Shown here one piece after another: positions 14,203-26,323 of a stretch of DNA of 64,000 nt. This DNA comes from Halorussus salinus. Lineage in GTDB: Archaea; Halobacteriota; Halobacteria; Halobacteriales; Haladaptataceae. Both the position numbers and the translations under genes were made by a program. The notes beneath the pieces were generated by a model. It searched no databases. It saw only the letters and a program-made list of their open reading frames with translations, and had not been told where the DNA came from. Every line of letters starts with the position of its first letter. Position 1 is the first letter of the stretch. The stretch is from the NCBI RefSeq assembly GCF_004765815.2, contig NZ_ML974127.1, forward strand, positions 1,280,927 through 1,344,926. Direction: 5' to 3'.

Positions 14203-14565
14203 TCACCGCTTCGACCGGCCCGGCGGCTTGTCGTGTTCCGCGCGGTGGTCCAGCATCTCGTCGTACTGGCAGGCCCGAATCCGGAGGTCCGACCGGGGCT
14301 TGGCGGTACAGGGGAGGATGAGGTCGGCCTCCTCGTCCTCGTCGTAGTACCGGCGAGCGTCCGATTGGTCCACCTCGCCGTCGAGCAGTTTCGCGGCGCA
14401 GGTGGTACACCACCCCTGCTGGCAGTCGGCGGGGAGCCAGACGCCCTCGCTCCGCGCGGCCGAGAGGAGGTATTCGGTCTCGGGAACCTCGATTTCGACG
14501 GTCTCCCCGGCCTGCTCGATATCGGCCTCCTCGGGGACCTCGATTTCGACGGTGTGGCTACTCAC
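14203..14565 (-). CDS. 2Fe-2S ferredoxin, plant type
   Basis: A 120-residue protein with cysteines 48, 53, 56 and 86 in the CX4CX2CX29C spacing that binds a [2Fe-2S] cluster. The N terminus contains a repeated VEIEVPE segment (residues 6-11 and 23-28). It lacks the long acidic insertion near the N terminus seen in the classical 129-residue halophilic ferredoxin, so it is probably one of the additional small ferredoxins. It carries electrons in the cytosol; the partner enzyme is not evident. The gene stands alone, upstream of the DCC gene on the same strand. Confidence 0.9.
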   Translation of the reverse strand: MSSHTVEIEVPEEADIEQAGETVEIEVPETEYLLSAARSEGVWLPADCQQGWCTTCAAKLLDGEVDQSDARRYYDEDEEADLILPCTAKPRSDLRIRACQYDEMLDHRAEHDKPPGRSKR

Positions 14566-14912: not shown

Positions 14913-15575
14913 CTACGCCGAGTCGTTGAACCGCCGGTTGGTCGAGAGCGGCGCGTCGCCGGGTTCCCCGCGGACGAAGTGGCCCGCCGGGTTGATTTCG
15001 CCGTCGCGCTCCATGCTGAGGAGTTCCACGAACCACGCCTCGTGTTCGATCTCCTCCTGCAAGATGCGACTCGCCATGTCGTAGGTCCGCGGGTCCTTGC
15101 CTTGGGTCATGTCGCAGATTTCGCTCCACGTCCGGATGGCGCATCGCTCGGCCTCCAACAGCACTTCGAGGACGCTCTCGGCGTCGAGTTGCTCGATGTT
15201 GTCCGGTGCGTCACCGCCCATCGGCACCGGCAACTCGGCGTGCGGGCACGACGCTCGCTCCATGAACGTCCCGATGTCGTTCGGGAGCGACCCGCCGAGT
15301 TCGTAGACGCGCGGCGCGACCAACTCGAAGTGCGCGCGGTCTTCGAGGCGCGCGTCCTCCGCTATCTCCTTGTAATCCTCGTGGCCCGCGAGGTGCATCC
15401 GGAGGTTGGTGTAGTAGTAGTACGTCGAGAACTCCGCGCCGATGGCGTCGATGAGCCGTTCGCGAAGCTCCTCGGGTTCGAGGCCGCGCTCGCGTAGCGA
15501 CTCCATCCCCACTCGCATACTGGTATCGCCCGGTTCGTACTCGCCTGCGCCGTGTCGTCGGTCGTCGTCTGCCAT
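14913..15575 (-). CDS. Ferritin-like (four-helix di-iron) protein
   Basis: A 220-residue all-helical protein. Candidate metal ligands are spread as in ferritin-like proteins: Glu in [10 protein letters not shown], an ExxxH pattern in [10 protein letters not shown], Glu in [12 protein letters not shown], and [11 protein letters not shown] near the C terminus. That fits a four-helix bundle with a di-iron site. It is longer than DpsA-type proteins and may store iron or protect against oxidants; the exact role is unknown. The start at 15575 follows a hydrophilic leader and is preferred to an upstream ATG that would add 41 unrelated residues. It diverges from the helicase gene. Confidence 0.75.
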
Positions 15576-15748
15576 TATGTTCTCCCCCGCAAGCAACGAC
15601 GGCTTTCGGACCCTTAACAATTCTTCCCAGATTACGAACATCGTTTCGAGTTCCCGGAATCGAAGTAACCGACGAGCCGAGGAGACGACGCCCTCCACTT
15701 TCGCTCCGCGGCGAAAGGGGTTAGGGACCCCGACCCTATCGCCGACTC

Positions 15749-18966: not shown

Positions 18967-19359
18967 ATGGACGAGGACCTCGACGCAGTCCGAGAGCGCA
19001 AGAAGCGCGCGCTCGCACAGGAGAAGGGCCTCGGTGCGCCAGCCTCGCCGGTCTACGTCGATGGCTCGCAGAACTTCGACCGGACGGTGACCGCTCACGA
19101 AGTCGTGTTGGTCCACTACTACGCCGACGGCGGCGCGGGCCAGCGGCTCCACCCCGTCGTGGAGTCGGTCGCGCGCGAGACGTTCGCGGCGGTGGCGAAA
19201 GTCAACGTCGTCCACCACCAGAAGTTGGCCTTGGAGCGGGGCGTCGAGGCGACGCCCGCCTTCGAGGTGTACGCCGACGGCGAGTGCCAAGAGCGCGTCC
19301 GAGGGCACGTCGAGAAAGACGAACTGGTGGAGTTGGTCGGCGAGCACACGTCGTTTTGA
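18967..19359 (+). CDS. Thioredoxin-fold protein lacking the CxxC motif
   Basis: A 130-residue protein with thioredoxin-like order: VVLVHYYADGGAGQRLHPVVE where thioredoxins have the active-site loop, VAKVNVVHHQKLALERGVEATPAFEVYADG with the cis-Pro region (ATPAF), and a C-terminal helix. The CGPC dipeptide region is replaced by GAGQ, so classical redox chemistry is not possible. Such proteins may act as scaffolds or chaperones. The last cysteine, in DGECQE, is away from the active site. A TATA-like AATTAAGTC about 27 bases upstream of the ATG suggests a leaderless transcript. Confidence 0.75.
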   Translation: MDEDLDAVRERKKRALAQEKGLGAPASPVYVDGSQNFDRTVTAHEVVLVHYYADGGAGQRLHPVVESVARETFAAVAKVNVVHHQKLALERGVEATPAFEVYADGECQERVRGHVEKDELVELVGEHTSF

Positions 19360-19444
19360 ATCCGACCGAATCGGCCTCGGCTTCCTCGATCTACCCGCGA
19401 CAGCCGCGGCTCCATCGAGTTCTCACTTCCGACCGAAACTCCTT

Positions 19445-19458
19445 TTAGGCCAGCCTAA
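19445..19458. promoter_or_regulatory. DtxR/IdeR-like palindrome 1
   Basis: TTAGG-CCAG-CCTAA, a perfect palindrome with five-base arms. It resembles the core of metal-dependent repressor boxes of the DtxR/IdeR/SirR kind. Its centre is 20 bases from that of the second box, about two helical turns, so two dimers could bind the same face. Confidence 0.75.
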
Positions 19459-19464
19459 TTCAGA

Positions 19465-19478
19465 TTAGGTTAGCCTAA
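19465..19478. promoter_or_regulatory. DtxR/IdeR-like palindrome 2
   Basis: TTAGG-TTAG-CCTAA, perfect five-base arms, ending three bases before the ATG at 19482. It is closer to the bacterial iron-box half (TTAGGTTAG) than box 1. Binding here would block the promoter or transcription start of the cluster, so repression by metal-loaded regulator is expected. This is inference from the motif. Confidence 0.8.
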
Positions 19479-19481
19479 ACC

Positions 19482-19928
19482 ATGCCCGACTCCCTCGACG
19501 CCATCCGCCGCGAAATCGCCGACCTCGCCGCCGAGGAGGGCGATTTCTACGTCGCGTGTGCCGACACGGACGAGCGCCCCGCGCCGCTCTCGGGCCGCCG
19601 GTTCCCCACCGAGGAGGCGGCCTCCTCGGCGGCGGCCCTCGCGCGCTCGTATCGCGAACTCCTGCGCGAGTCCGACCCGAACCTCCCCGAGCGTCGCCTC
19701 TCGGTGTACGAGCGGGCCGACGACCCCCCGACGGCGGTCTCGACCCGCAAGCGCACCGAGGAGACCCGCGAGAACGGCCTGCCCCGGACCTCGCGGTCGG
19801 TGACGCTCTCGGGCGATTGTGAGTCCGAGTGGCTCCGGATGGACAACGCGCCGCTGGTCCACGTCCGGAGCGACGGCGAACCGCTCCCCGACGACGCGGT
19901 AGAGCGCCAACTCGAATCGAAGCTATGA
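19482..19928 (+). CDS. Uncharacterised protein, first gene of an iron-box cluster
   Basis: A 148-residue soluble protein. The N terminus (DSLDAIRREIADLAAEEGDFYVACADT) and the C-terminal SRSVTLSGDCESEWLRMDNAPLVHVRSDGE are shared with the product of the gene at 20819, so the two are paralogues. I do not recognise a fold or catalytic motif; the central part is Arg/Thr-rich and probably flexible. Its start is just three bases after the second palindrome. The stop overlaps the next start (ATGA). Probably one of the unnamed haloarchaeal DUF75xx families. Confidence 0.75.
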   Translation: MPDSLDAIRREIADLAAEEGDFYVACADTDERPAPLSGRRFPTEEAASSAAALARSYRELLRESDPNLPERRLSVYERADDPPTAVSTRKRTEETRENGLPRTSRSVTLSGDCESEWLRMDNAPLVHVRSDGEPLPDDAVERQLESKL

Positions 19929-20740
19929 CCGACCAGTTCCCGACGAGAGGCGTGGAGGCGTCGCTCGACCGCCGGACGCCCGCGGCGATGGAGCGCGCGG
20001 CCAGCGAGCGCGACCGCATCGAGGAGAAGGTCGCGGCGTTCGGCGAGTTCCGCGAGCGGGTCGCGGACGTGCCGACCGACGCGAGCGGCCGCGGCAGTCG
20101 GAGCGCACAGTCGGGCCGGTCGGCCGGGGGCGCGCTGGCGGTGGGGACGACCGCGAGCAGTTCGACCGACAGCGCGGCGACGGTCCGCGAGGCGTTCGGC
20201 GAGACGGTCCTGCCCTACGCCGACGCCGACTCGATGCAGGAGGCGATGGCCGACGAACTGTCGCCGGAACTGACCGCGGCGCTCTCGCCCGCGGCGGGCG
20301 GATTCTCGACGGGCCTGAAGCGCCAACTGGTCTCGCGCGCCGACCAGCGCCGCAAGGAGTGTCGCCTGCTTGCCGACGGTATCGAGGGCGAGCGCGAGCG
20401 CGTTCGGGAGATTGCGGACGAACTGGACCGAATGCTCGACTGGCTCGCCACCGCCGACGAGACGCCGCTCCTCCAACTGGGTTTCGAGGAGCTACGGGCG
20501 CGCCACGACCGACTCGCCGAGTTCCGCGAGACCTGCGACCGACTGGCGGCCGAGCGACAGGCCGCGATTCGAGAGACCCGAAACGACGGTCTGACCGGGA
20601 TTCGGGAGGCCGAACTGATAGACCACCTCTACGGCGAGTTCGGCGACGACCATCCCGTGTTGGCCGACCTCGCGGAACTCGACGCGCTACTGGCCGACTG
20701 CCAGCGCGCGGTCCGGAAGCACCTCAGCGCGCGCGTCTGA
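19925..20740 (+). CDS. DUF7260-like helical protein of the iron-box cluster
   Basis: A 271-residue soluble protein, mainly helical. Residues about 15-50 and 150-270 have long charged heptad-like helices (ERDRIEEKVAAFGEFRERV; QRRKECRLLADGIEGERERVREIADELDRML). A Ser/Gly-rich stretch separates them. It resembles haloarchaeal DUF7260 proteins, of unknown function. No metal-ligand cluster or catalytic signature is visible. Its start overlaps the upstream stop by four bases, so the two are translationally coupled. Confidence 0.7.
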   Translation: MTDQFPTRGVEASLDRRTPAAMERAASERDRIEEKVAAFGEFRERVADVPTDASGRGSRSAQSGRSAGGALAVGTTASSSTDSAATVREAFGETVLPYADADSMQEAMADELSPELTAALSPAAGGFSTGLKRQLVSRADQRRKECRLLADGIEGERERVREIADELDRMLDWLATADETPLLQLGFEELRARHDRLAEFRETCDRLAAERQAAIRETRNDGLTGIREAELIDHLYGEFGDDHPVLADLAELDALLADCQRAVRKHLSARV

Positions 20741-20818
20741 CTCTTCTATCAGTTTTCCGGCCGATGCCGATTCCGAAACTGCTTACTCGGTCGGTTGAGG
20801 GCTGGCCACCGAGTCCCT

Positions 20819-21313
20819 ATGACAGACTCCCTCGAACACCTCCGCCAGCGGATAACCGACTTGACCGAGCCGGACGGCGATTTCGCCGTCGTCTGTCCGC
20901 TCTCGGGTAAGTGCCCGGTCCCCGTCCGCGGCGAGTCGTTCCCCGACGCAACCGCCGCCGAGGAGGCCGTGGACCTCGTGGTCGAGTACCGGAAACTCCT
21001 CCGGGAAGTGGACCCCTACCTCGAAAATATCCCCATCGTGGCTATCGAGCGAACCGCCGCGCCGCTCGCGCTCGACGCGCGGGAGCGGAGCGAGCGCGCA
21101 GGCGACGGCGCGAGCGGAACCGAGCGCGCGAGCGGGGCGTCCGGCCGTCGGCGTCCCGCCGCCCGGTCGGTCTCGCGGTCGGTGACGCTCTCGGGCGACG
21201 GCGACGCCGAGTGGCTCCGGATGGACGACGCGCCGGTCGTCCACGTCCGGCGCGACGGCGAACTGCTGGACGACGAGACGGTCTCCCGGCAACTCCGGGC
21301 CGCGTTTCGGTGA
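20819..21313 (+). CDS. Paralogue of the first iron-box-cluster protein
   Basis: A 164-residue protein matching the 19482 product at both ends: TDSLEHLRQRITDLTEPDGDF and SRSVTLSGDGDAEWLRMDDAPVVHVRRDGE. The middle part differs, with two cysteines in CPLSGKC and an Arg/Gly/Ser-rich linker. Function unknown. The gap of 78 bases before it carries no copy of the palindrome, so it may rely on read-through from the two upstream genes or on its own promoter. It converges with the membrane-protein gene to the right. Confidence 0.75.
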   Translation: MTDSLEHLRQRITDLTEPDGDFAVVCPLSGKCPVPVRGESFPDATAAEEAVDLVVEYRKLLREVDPYLENIPIVAIERTAAPLALDARERSERAGDGASGTERASGASGRRRPAARSVSRSVTLSGDGDAEWLRMDDAPVVHVRRDGELLDDETVSRQLRAAFR

Positions 21314-22412: not shown

Positions 22413-23183
22413 TCAGACCGAGGCCGCGTCGCCCAACCCGCCGTCGATGAGTTGGATGAGGACCGCCGCGATACCGGTCTTCGACGACCAGATGGCGGTC
22501 TCCTCCTCTAGCTCGGGGTCGTCGCGTCGGTCCCTGACGCTCAGGAGGACCGTCTCGGCGTCCACGACCACGACGCGGCCCACGGGGTCGTCGCCGTGGG
22601 GGTGGTCGGCCGGGAGTTGCATCACCGTCACGTCGCTGTCGGCGAACAGTTCGCCGAGCGCGGGGTCGCCGACCAACAGGACCTCGACGCCCGCGTCGGC
22701 CCGCTCGCGCAGGAGGTCGGCGAGGTCGTCGGTCAGACCGCGGGCGTCCCGGCCCACGCCGAAGACGACGCGGCGCTCGGCCTCGTCGATGAGTTGCTCG
22801 ACTCGGCCGTCGATGCTGGTCCGCCCGTGGACCGTCCAGATGTCCTCTCGCTCCTCGTCGCCCTCGCCGCGCTGCCTCCGGGCGGCTTCGAGGTAGTCGA
22901 AGGCCCGCTCTTGGGTGCGCTCGAACTCGCCGCGGAGGTGCGACTGCGCGGCGTCGAGGCTGACGGGCCGGTACTGGATGGGCTTGGACTGTTGGACCTC
23001 CACGAGACCGCGGTCTTGCAGCGACTCGGCCGCGCCGTAGACCTGCGAGCGGGGCACGTCGGTCGCCCGATGCACGTCGCGGGCGGTCCCCGTGCCGAGT
23101 CGCTGGAGCGCGGCGAACACCTTGGCCTCGTAGTTCGAGAGGCCGAGGTCTTCGAGCGCGTCGATGGCGTCGTCTTCGTCCAT
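22413..23183 (-). CDS. TrmB-family transcriptional regulator
   Basis: A 256-residue protein. Residues about 5-75 are the TrmB winged-helix domain: LGLSNYEAKVFAALQRLGTGTARDVHRATDVPRSQVYGAAESLQDRGLVEV. The second half has the phospholipase-D-like TrmB ligand fold (EDIWTVHGRTSIDGRVEQLIDEAERRVVFGV). The family usually senses sugars, but small regulators next to exporters are common. The ATG shares one base with the stop of the RND gene (TGATG), so the regulator is translated with the exporter it probably controls. A perfect palindrome upstream of the RND gene is a candidate binding site. Confidence 0.85.
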   Translation of the reverse strand: MDEDDAIDALEDLGLSNYEAKVFAALQRLGTGTARDVHRATDVPRSQVYGAAESLQDRGLVEVQQSKPIQYRPVSLDAAQSHLRGEFERTQERAFDYLEAARRQRGEGDEEREDIWTVHGRTSIDGRVEQLIDEAERRVVFGVGRDARGLTDDLADLLRERADAGVEVLLVGDPALGELFADSDVTVMQLPADHPHGDDPVGRVVVVDAETVLLSVRDRRDDPELEEETAIWSSKTGIAAVLIQLIDGGLGDAASV

Positions 23184-26100
23184 CAGTCCTCGCTCACCTC
23201 CGTCCCCGCGCTCTGGGTGACCGCCGAACTCGGGTCCGCGGCGGTGGCCTCGCCCGGCCCGAGGTAGCGCGTCCACAGCACCAGCAGACTCGGGAGGACG
23301 AGGACGCTGGCGAGGAACGCGTAGACGATGGTCAGTCCGGTGATGATGCCGAACTGCTGGAGCGCGGGCAGGATGGCGAACGCGAGGACGCCGAACCCGC
23401 CGACCGTGGTCGCCGCGCTACCGAGGAGCGCGCCGCCGGTCCCGGTGACGCTCTCGCGCATGGCGGCCCAGATGGTGTCGCGCCGCCCGAGTTCCATCGT
23501 GTAGCGCTCGCTGAGGTGGATGCTGTAGGCCACCCCGAGACCGACCGTGAGGCTCGTAATCATCCCCGTCAGGACGTTGAACGGCATCCCCAGCAGGTAC
23601 ATCGTCCCGAGAATCCACGAGACGCTGAACGCCACCGGGAGCAGGGTGATGGCTCCCAAGGTGGCGCTCCCGTGAGCGATGCGGTAGGCTATCATCAGGA
23701 ACGCGAACGTCGCGCCCAGCGTGATGAGCAGGCTCTGGATGACCGTATCGAGCAACTGCTTCTGGACGATTTCGAAGACGATGGGTTGGCCCGTCGCGGT
23801 CGCGGTCAGGCCGTCGCCGTTCACGTTCGCGGCGATGTCGCGCATCTCGGTCGTGACCGTCGAGGAGGACGCGCCCCCTTTCACGGAGACGACCATGCGC
23901 GCGGCCTCGTACTCCCCGTCTTGGCGGACGAGGACGCCCTTCGCCTCTTGGGGCGCGACGGCGAACAGTTCGTCGAAAACCTGCTCAACGTTCTGCTCGG
24001 GCACGCCGTCACCGTCGGTGTCGGCGGCCGCGAGCGTCGCGTTGAACGACTCGTTCTGCGCGGCCGCGCGCTCCATCACCGAGAGCGGACTCCGAATCTG
24101 TGGCTCGCCGTTCGAGAGGACGACCACGACCTCCTCCTTCCCGGCCGCGGTGTCTTTCGCCCGCTGTAGCTTTTCGAGCGCGTCCGGCGTCGCCACGTCG
24201 CCCTCTACGAGAATTTGGGCCTGCGAATCCTGTCGCAGGAAATTGTCGTTGACGTATTCGAGGTTCGCCTTCGCGGTGTAGGTGCCGGGCGCGAACGGTT
24301 CGGGCAGGTCCTTCATCCAGTCGGCCGGGTCCTCCGCGAGGAAGTCCGTCTGCGAGAAGCTGGTATCGACCTGCGTCGCGCCGTACGCGCCGCCAGCCGA
24401 GAGGACCAGCGTCAGCGCGATGACGACGAAGGGAGCCTTCCGGGCGGCGACCGACCCGACCGAGAGCAGCGAGCCGAGCGCGCCGCCGCCGGTCCCGAAC
24501 GCCCGCTTCTTGCGGTCGAAGCCGCGGGCTTCGAGGAGACCGTCGATTTCGACTTTCAGCGCGGGAATCAGGCCGCCGAAGACGACCAGCGCCGCGAGGA
24601 TGCCGACCGAACTCACGATACCGAAGTCCTGAATCGGCGGCAGGGGGCTGACGAGGTTCGACATGAAGCCGATGACCGTCGTCGCGGTCACCCAGACGAG
24701 CGCCACGCCGACGCTCGCGAGCGCGACCGACATGCCCTCCCGGACGCTCTCGCCGTCGTGTTCCTCGCGCTCCTCGCGGTGGCGCATGAACACGTGGATG
24801 GCGTAGTCGATGGAGAGGCCGATGAGCAGGACCGGCACCGCGATGAAGATCTGGTTGAACGTGATGTCGAACCAGCCCATGAAGCCGAACGTCCAGACGA
24901 GGACCGCGACGATGCCGAACACGCCCAACAGGATGTCCAGCAGGTCACGGTAGGCGATTATCAGCGTCAGGACGACGAACAGCAGGGCCATCGGGCCGAC
25001 GATGGCGATGCTGTCTGCCATCGACTGGTTGGTCTCCTCGCTGATGATGCCCGACCCGAACACCAACACCTCGCGGTCGAGGTCCTGTTTTGCGATCTGC
25101 TGCATCGCGGTCTGGGACTCGACGATGGTGTCGGAGGCCATGCTCTGGACCGACTGCCCGCCCTGTTGCTGGAACACGACGAGCATCGTCGCGTCGGCCT
25201 CGGTGCTACCGGGCTCGTAGGAAGTCGGCATGAACGCGAACGCCTGACTCGACGGGCCGGAACCGCCCTCGCTCAGGACGGTGCCGACCGCCGACTCCAC
25301 CTCGGAGTCGTTCATCGACTCCAACTGGGCGACCTGCTCGGAGAGGGTCGGTGCGGACGCGTTTTGCAACTGCTGGCGCTGTTCCTGCAACTGCTGGCCC
25401 TCCTCGGCGAGTTGCTGGCCGCGCTCGCGCAGGTCGGCCCCGCGCTGTTGGAGCTGTCGGAACTCGTCGGCCAACACGCCCTGCGTGCCCAGTTGGTACA
25501 CTTGCCCGAACTGCGACCGAATCTCGCCCGCGCGCTGGCGGTAGGTGGACTGGTTGATGTCGCCCTGCTGGAACGAAGCGTTGAGTCGGTCGAGTCGCTG
25601 CTGGAGGCCCCGAACCTGCTCGAAGGCCCGTACGTACGTCGCCGACTGGTTCGCGCTCAGGTTCCCGGTCGCGGCGGTCCGGACCTGCCGGAGTCGCGTC
25701 TCCAACTGCTCGGACCGCTGGCTGTACGTGGAGTCGTTGAGTTGGCCCTGCTGGTACGACGCGTTGAGGCGGTCGTAGCGGGCCTGCAACTCGCGAGTCC
25801 GGTTCAGCGTCGTACTCAGTCGCGCGGCGGTCCGGTTGAGTTGCCGACTCCGCTCTCGAAGCTCGGTCCGCGACTCGTTGAGCGCCTGCGTGCGCTCTCG
25901 GAGTTTCGCGCCCTGCTTGCGGAGTTCCGTCGCCTGCTCCTGTCGGATGGCGACCGTGGCGACGATGTTGGCGACGCCGGTCGTCGGCGTCCCGTTCACC
26001 AGCGTCCGGTTGACGGTGGCGTTGCTCCGCAACGCCTGCTGGAGTCGCAGGCTCTCGATGAGCGCCCCTTTCGAGAGGACGTTGCCCTCCTCGTCGCGGA

Positions 26101-26323
26101 CGATGAGTTGGACCGTCGTCTGATTCTCGTCGCCCGACGAGAAGTTGGAGTTGATGTAGTCCAACTTCTCTGCGGCCGTGCTGTCGCTCTGGAACTGGTC
26201 GAGCGACGACGACTGGTCCACCATTGGCGCGCCCGCCCCGACCAGCACGGTCAGCACGAGGAGGACGGCGATAATCGGACGGCTGTACTCCGTGACGGCG
26301 GCGAAGAGGTCGCTGGCGTTCAC
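23183..26323 (-). CDS. RND-superfamily (MMPL-type) exporter with long extracytoplasmic coiled coil
   Basis: A 1,046-residue membrane protein with two MMPL/RND halves, each with six or so transmembrane segments after a large extracytoplasmic loop. The first loop (about residues 35-400) includes a Gln/Arg-rich helical stretch (128-325) with an internal repeat: YDRLNASYQQGQLNDSTYSQ (183-202) and LDRLNASFQQGDINQSTYRQ (244-263). The core has GLSIDYAIHVFMRHREE and GLGVAYSIHLSERYTME, the conserved half-site motifs. Such proteins often export lipids or hydrophobic compounds. It is the first gene of an operon with a TrmB regulator, downstream of a palindrome. Confidence 0.85.
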   Translation of the reverse strand: MNASDLFAAVTEYSRPIIAVLLVLTVLVGAGAPMVDQSSSLDQFQSDSTAAEKLDYINSNFSSGDENQTTVQLIVRDEEGNVLSKGALIESLRLQQALRSNATVNRTLVNGTPTTGVANIVATVAIRQEQATELRKQGAKLRERTQALNESRTELRERSRQLNRTAARLSTTLNRTRELQARYDRLNASYQQGQLNDSTYSQRSEQLETRLRQVRTAATGNLSANQSATYVRAFEQVRGLQQRLDRLNASFQQGDINQSTYRQRAGEIRSQFGQVYQLGTQGVLADEFRQLQQRGADLRERGQQLAEEGQQLQEQRQQLQNASAPTLSEQVAQLESMNDSEVESAVGTVLSEGGSGPSSQAFAFMPTSYEPGSTEADATMLVVFQQQGGQSVQSMASDTIVESQTAMQQIAKQDLDREVLVFGSGIISEETNQSMADSIAIVGPMALLFVVLTLIIAYRDLLDILLGVFGIVAVLVWTFGFMGWFDITFNQIFIAVPVLLIGLSIDYAIHVFMRHREEREEHDGESVREGMSVALASVGVALVWVTATTVIGFMSNLVSPLPPIQDFGIVSSVGILAALVVFGGLIPALKVEIDGLLEARGFDRKKRAFGTGGGALGSLLSVGSVAARKAPFVVIALTLVLSAGGAYGATQVDTSFSQTDFLAEDPADWMKDLPEPFAPGTYTAKANLEYVNDNFLRQDSQAQILVEGDVATPDALEKLQRAKDTAAGKEEVVVVLSNGEPQIRSPLSVMERAAAQNESFNATLAAADTDGDGVPEQNVEQVFDELFAVAPQEAKGVLVRQDGEYEAARMVVSVKGGASSSTVTTEMRDIAANVNGDGLTATATGQPIVFEIVQKQLLDTVIQSLLITLGATFAFLMIAYRIAHGSATLGAITLLPVAFSVSWILGTMYLLGMPFNVLTGMITSLTVGLGVAYSIHLSERYTMELGRRDTIWAAMRESVTGTGGALLGSAATTVGGFGVLAFAILPALQQFGIITGLTIVYAFLASVLVLPSLLVLWTRYLGPGEATAADPSSAVTQSAGTEVSED

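Follow-up and report, generated by a model that had tools for sequence, protein, structure and literature searches.

The first two genes of a three-gene cluster in a Halorussus genome almost certainly belong, as judged from sequence, to the haloarchaeal DtxR-type iron regulon, and the proteins that they encode, members of the Pfam families DUF7552 and DUF7260, are probably made in iron starvation. As to function, we tentatively suggest, with somewhat less than even confidence, that genes 1 and 2 constitute an iron-regulon operon whose products assist the ABC import of ferri-siderophores from the cytosolic side. All coordinates given below, unless prefixed by another handle, refer to the window, namely the whole 64-kb stretch of DNA that was analyzed.

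The gene cluster and its protein families

Gene 1, located on the forward strand at 19482-19928, encodes a protein of 148 residues in which a DUF7552 domain, delineated by residues 5 to 78 (PF24422, E-value of 7e-26, 90.7 bits), is followed by a C-terminal extension carrying EWLRMDNAPLVHVR. Gene 2 (19925-20740, forward strand) encodes a 271-residue protein that belongs to DUF7260 (PF23921, 4e-60, 203.7 bits) and that falls within the iron-box clade of the family tree. Gene 3 (20819-21313, forward strand) encodes a 164-residue DUF7552 paralogue of gene 1 (PF24422, 1e-22, 80.7 bits). The gathering cut-off is 27 bits for each family. Genes 1 and 2 share 4 bp (ATGA, 19925-19928), the start codon of the latter overlapping the stop codon of the former, and on the basis of this overlap they are treated as one regulated unit.

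The initial annotation described two paralogues sharing a C-terminal motif. Indeed, the products of genes 1 and 3 are 44% identical, and EWLRMD(N/D)AP(L/V)VHVR is common to both, but it is the N-terminal DUF7552 domain that defines the family. The EWLRMD motif is a feature of the Halorussus/Haladaptatus-type copies; it has no Pfam match and is restricted to that one lineage, and it was therefore set aside as a functional clue.

A third DUF7552 gene in the genome (C3:279984) is of the longer DUF7552-DUF7551 type and is preceded by a separate box, 15 bp from its ATG. The locus proteins and this long-type protein are members of DUF7552, DUF7551 (PF24420), and DUF7260 far above the cut-off. In a protein in which DUF7551 is fused to DUF7552 (L044, 829-1737), the alignment reveals near-invariant F-C-H and conserved L-C-L motifs in a predicted helical region; these motifs are candidate metal or heme ligands.

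Pfam attaches no function to the three families, and the link to iron and the division of DUF7260 into iron and non-iron groups come from the present data. Searches of PHROGs and NCBIfam gave no match for any of the three proteins, and no description of a role for DUF7552 or DUF7260 was found in the literature searched. The genes were thus correctly said to lack a recognized function, albeit within curated families.

Several neighboring genes may be noted. A thioredoxin-fold protein without redox cysteines, its CxxC region reading YADGGAG, is encoded at 18967-19359, and most Halorussus genomes retain its gene immediately ahead of the operon. Positions 14203-14565 and 14913-15647, 4-5 kb upstream, encode a 2Fe-2S ferredoxin-domain protein and an archaeal Dps, with no perfect box. 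The gene for an MMPL/RND-type permease, at 23183-26323, remains syntenic with the operon throughout Halorussus and its sister genus, and no box lies ahead of it. In Haloferax volcanii, the protein with the strongest increase under iron starvation was an RND-superfamily permease (PMC11349517).

Operator boxes and promoters

Box 1, TTAGGCCAGCCTAA, spans 19445-19458, and box 2, TTAGGTTAGCCTAA, spans 19465-19478. Each is an exact match to TTAGG-N4-CCTAA, and neither is assigned to a strand. They are spaced by 20 bp, and box 2 ends three bases ahead of the gene 1 ATG at 19482, exactly as initially described. Their likening to DtxR/IdeR-type sites also holds. Crystal structures and gel shifts have led to a redefinition of the 19-bp IdeR/DtxR consensus, TTAGGTTAGSCTAACCTAA, as the 14-bp site TTAGGNNNNCCTAA (PMC8464063), and the two boxes match the redefined site exactly. 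In addition, the first 14 of the 19 consensus bases, read from the 5' end, are exactly those of box 2. Previously characterized DtxR/IdeR operators share the 14-bp consensus and likewise lie over promoters of iron-uptake genes (PMC8464063), but they form one overlapping 19-bp site, whereas here two separate 14-bp boxes are positioned 20-21 bp apart.

Allowing up to one mismatch, boxes 1 and 2 are the only matches to the pattern in the window; shuffled versions of the window contained a mean of 0.14 such matches and never two. The exact pattern occurs 22 times in the complete 4.75-Mb haloarchaeal (Halorussus) genome versus four times for a reversed control pattern. Together, the shuffles and the genome-wide count rule out a chance origin for the boxes.

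The gene 1 core promoter, assigned from the haloarchaeal promoter consensus, consists on the forward strand of a BRE-like CCGAAAC at 19433-19439 and a TATA-like CTTTTAGG at 19442-19449, the latter overlapping box 1. Box 2 probably sits over the transcription start. This layout, with box 1 on the TATA-like element following the BRE-like CCGAAAC and box 2 on the expected start, is shared by the orthologue promoters of Halorussus and of the Haladaptatus-type genus. Elsewhere in the Halobacteria, the usual layout is a spacing of 35-36 bp, with one box on either side of the BRE/TATA region. Either layout would let a repressor exclude TBP/TFB.

Gene 3 is preceded by a box-free BRE/TATA-like element, CCGAAAC..CTTAC (20773-20786, forward strand, likewise assigned from the consensus), which was present ahead of all 11 of the orthologues examined. 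Gene 3 is thus probably driven by its own promoter, although read-through from genes 1 and 2 is possible. The initial annotation placed a three-gene cluster behind the operator. The three genes exist, but given the conserved, box-free promoter of gene 3, only genes 1 and 2 are clearly under the double operator, and the regulated cluster is reduced from three genes to two.

Conservation of the boxes and of the gene pair

DUF7552 is present in 52 of 99 related genomes. Both boxes are perfect ahead of every one of the 25 distinct gene 1 orthologues. None of the 20 specified bases changes in these promoters, in contrast to the four inner positions of each box, which do; the boxes are separated by 6 or 7 bp, and 2 or 3 bp remain before the ATG. 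Close kinship alone does not account for such conservation: the inner four bases and the flanks vary while the ten specified bases are fixed, and in other families the spacing differs and other genes intervene. Among the long-type DUF7552 genes, a perfect box lies within 200 bp in 24 of 38 distinct genes.

In the named genomes (Halobacteria), DUF7552 is encoded just upstream of DUF7260 at 31 of 52 loci, and a box occurs within 450 bp of the DUF7552/DUF7260 unit at 41 of the 52. Absence of the palindromes from orthologues, which the initial annotation had offered as a refutation of its proposal, is thus not what was observed. Most of the unboxed loci (L151, L154, L158, L166, L167, L192, L195) lie behind a boxed gene for a siderophore-binding protein or for DUF5059. 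L165 was mis-scored as unboxed, its gene being broken into pieces, and no box was seen at L169 or L194. In L158 and L167 the boxed DUF5059 gene is directly upstream of DUF7552/DUF7260, and the L158 copy contains a plastocyanin-type copper domain. The presence of DUF5059 in such an operon possibly reflects a replacement of iron by copper.

The iron regulon in the same genome

Most of the genomic boxes lie a short way, about 15-30 bp and sometimes more, ahead of the starts of iron genes. Those for siderophore synthesis include a class-III aminotransferase, a PLP decarboxylase, IucA/IucC, and a Lys/Orn N-oxygenase, and those for import include FhuD-like siderophore-binding lipoproteins, a FecCD permease, a FhuC ATPase, and an FbpABC-like importer. 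The suf genes are also preceded by a box. A few boxes stand ahead of genes that have no evident connection with iron (glutamine synthetase-like, sorbosone dehydrogenase-like, lipoate ligase-like, and glycosyltransferase-like). Perfect boxes of this kind are found at C1:302738 (sorbosone-dehydrogenase-like), at C1:1369136 (reversibly-glycosylated-polypeptide-like), and at C3:146179, before a gluconate-dehydrogenase-like/GMC oxidoreductase pair.

The genome encodes at least three clear DtxR-family regulators and several weaker ones, and the operator ahead of gene 1 is the one found at known iron-acquisition genes. The proposal that metal-dependent repression governs a system for times of scarcity, made initially from the placement and spacing of the boxes, is supported by the conservation of the boxes and by their recurrence at siderophore and iron ABC genes. 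The metal itself deserves comment. DtxR-family proteins include manganese sensors, and the boxes might answer to manganese or another metal that the proteins then serve. We consider this very improbable, and iron is favored, because the co-regulated genes that share the box are siderophore and iron genes. Furthermore, in Haloferax volcanii, all fhu operons are preceded by a ferR signal, and iron starvation raises the levels of several Fhu proteins (PMC11349517).

The regulator class and the targets, fhu operons and siderophore synthesis, are those of the known haloarchaeal FerR/Idr/SirR/TroR iron regulon, to which the DUF7552-DUF7260 unit of Halorussus is an addition from the present data. That regulon is reportedly treated by Schmid (2011), Leyn and Rodionov (2015), and Martinez-Pastor (2024), all cited in PMC11349517, and the membership of some DUF7552/DUF7260 homologues may already be tabulated in the published regulon papers.

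The DUF7260 family tree and gene neighborhoods

When 97 DUF7260 proteins are placed in a tree, 65 of the 66 rows of one clade that could be scored carry a box, and in the sister group 0 of 13 do so. The label allows a distance of as much as 3.5 kb upstream, and although most of the boxes lie 1.2 kb away or less, some of those counted may belong to a neighboring iron gene. The only exception in the boxed clade is L167, and here a gene located 3.7 kb upstream is boxed. The box label changes twice on the tree versus 13.2 times in shuffles, and none of 500 shuffles was as low. This division into iron and non-iron groups was found in no source available to us.

The signature of the iron clade, in the numbering of the window protein, is H194 and C259-Q-x3-R264-x-H266, whereas T94, E111, E156, R211-Q212, Y236, and P244 are common to the iron and non-iron groups. 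These residues bear on the closest rival to an importer controller, which is that the pair carries out an enzymatic or metallochaperone step, either taking iron from the ferri-siderophore by reduction or ligand release or carrying Fe(II). Such a step, which we regard as rather unlikely, would use the conserved His, Cys, and Glu residues of DUF7260 together with the near-invariant Cys of DUF7552. It is consistent with cytosolic proteins encoded within FhuD-containing operons, with the confinement of H194, C259, and H266 to the iron clade, and with the FAD/NAD(P) oxidoreductase gene that adjoins the pair at some loci (L154, L192). In Haloferax mediterranei a similar oxidoreductase gene is repressed together with FhuC/FecCD (PMC11218638), which also counts in its favor. 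However, no flavin, Fe-S, or heme-oxygenase family was matched, and C204 and C259 are substituted in some members of the iron clade. In addition, the non-iron clade likewise has E111, E156, R211-Q212, and Y236, and thus the core function of DUF7260 is not specific for iron.

The gene neighborhoods are informative. At L206 and L208, DUF7260 is encoded between FhuD and FecCD-FhuC. At five loci (L196, L200-L203), a box-less DUF7260 gene is divergent from a PstS-PstC-PstA-PstB set, and at one of these, L200, a PhoU_div gene following it was confirmed. The pst-linked proteins are possibly the phosphate counterpart of the iron module; most of the box-less DUF7260 genes examined are not beside pst. 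The recurrence of DUF7260 beside ABC importers of scarce nutrients, and the soluble, helical character of the protein, lead us to favor a controller or accessory role.

Against a role at an importer, the Haloferax neighbors are a repressor and a ferritin, with no transporter. The order in Haloferax and Halorubrum is DUF7260, a DtxR regulator gene, and a DpsA-like ferritin gene, which might suggest that the pair mobilizes stored iron as a starvation-induced partner of DpsA/ferritin, as might the Dps gene located 4 kb away in the window. In Haloferax volcanii the order acn, DUF6069, DUF7260, DtxR, DpsA suggests that the DUF7260 gene is HVO_0539, Idr being HVO_0538. Mobilization of stored iron we judge improbable given that Dps adjacency is observed at only about 10 of the 52 named loci, that the Dps gene in the window has no box, and that most of the neighbors are transporters.

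Structure predictions

The AlphaFold2 model of the gene 2 product has a mean pLDDT of 86.7 and is almost wholly helical, in keeping with the helical protein initially described between the paralogues. Its long helices are formed by residues 18-47, 129-177, 187-215, and 244-270. The last two are consecutive and expected to be antiparallel, an arrangement that might bring H194 close to H266, and C204 close to C259. A Foldseek search of the PDB with this model gave no match at E <= 0.001, the best E being 0.55. For DUF7552 the model has a mean pLDDT of 81.4 and a pTM of 0.56; the N-terminal domain, with a helix-strand-helix-strand topology, is fairly confident, and the C-terminal part is weaker. 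A fold search of the PDB with this model gave no match, nor did a sequence search for solved structures related to the locus proteins.

Several candidate identities were rejected. Like PhoU and PhoU_div, DUF7260 is helical and cytosolic, and its paralogues adjoin PstSCAB, but there is no match between them in sequence or fold: only DUF7260 itself matches the gene 2 product at E <= 0.1, and the only two PhoU-like Foldseek entries have E values of 3.4 and 6.2 with TM scores below 0.2. No ferritin-like domain was found by sequence or fold search, which argues against a Dps or ferritin, and no FhuF or flavin/SIP domain was found, which argues against a ferric-siderophore reductase of the FhuF/SIP type.

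That no functional homologue emerged from the sequence or fold searches is compatible with yet another explanation, namely that the boxes are real and the proteins act in starvation in a general way, for example as a transcription or growth regulator, without direct contact with iron or an importer. The DUF7260 paralogues in phosphate and other contexts, which retain the same core residues, are likewise compatible with it. We think it decidedly unlikely, however, as the iron clade is monophyletic, carries clade-specific residues, and is encoded inside ABC transporter operons.

Proposed mechanism and role

In the scheme that we tentatively favor, that of an accessory to the ferri-siderophore importer, a metal-loaded DtxR-family repressor of the FerR/Idr/TroR type would occupy both 14-bp boxes under iron-replete conditions; the metal sensed is probably iron, and the repressor would be one of the DtxR paralogues of the genome. 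With one box over the TATA element and the other over the start site, TBP/TFB would be blocked. When iron becomes scarce, the repressor would leave, and both cytosolic proteins would be made in a translationally coupled manner. PhoU controls the phosphate importer Pst, and DUF7260 may work in a similar manner without being a PhoU homologue, an analogy drawn from gene neighborhood only. It would serve as a helical adaptor that controls the importer or couples it to iron status. Candidate ligands for the iron signal are the iron-clade-specific H194 and H266 and also C204/C259, which are conserved in most members, and DUF7552 would act as the partner or delivery domain of DUF7260. A broader proposal, and an unlikely one at present, is that the DUF7260 proteins are archaeal nutrient-specific controllers of ABC importers with a fold absent from the PDB, the iron clade being DtxR-controlled with DUF7552 as its partner and others serving phosphate.

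Iron uptake in the haloarchaea is understood in terms of siderophore synthesis and Fhu importers. The DUF7552-DUF7260 pair, which lacks a solved relative, occurs widely as a component of the iron-box regulon, and it may bear on the release of iron in the cytosol or on the control of the importer. The two box layouts, one over the TATA element and the start and the other flanking the BRE/TATA region, provide a clean natural comparison for archaeal DtxR repression. Finally, the division of DUF7260 into an iron-boxed clade and box-less clades, with phosphate-importer neighbors among the latter, offers a concrete and testable lead.
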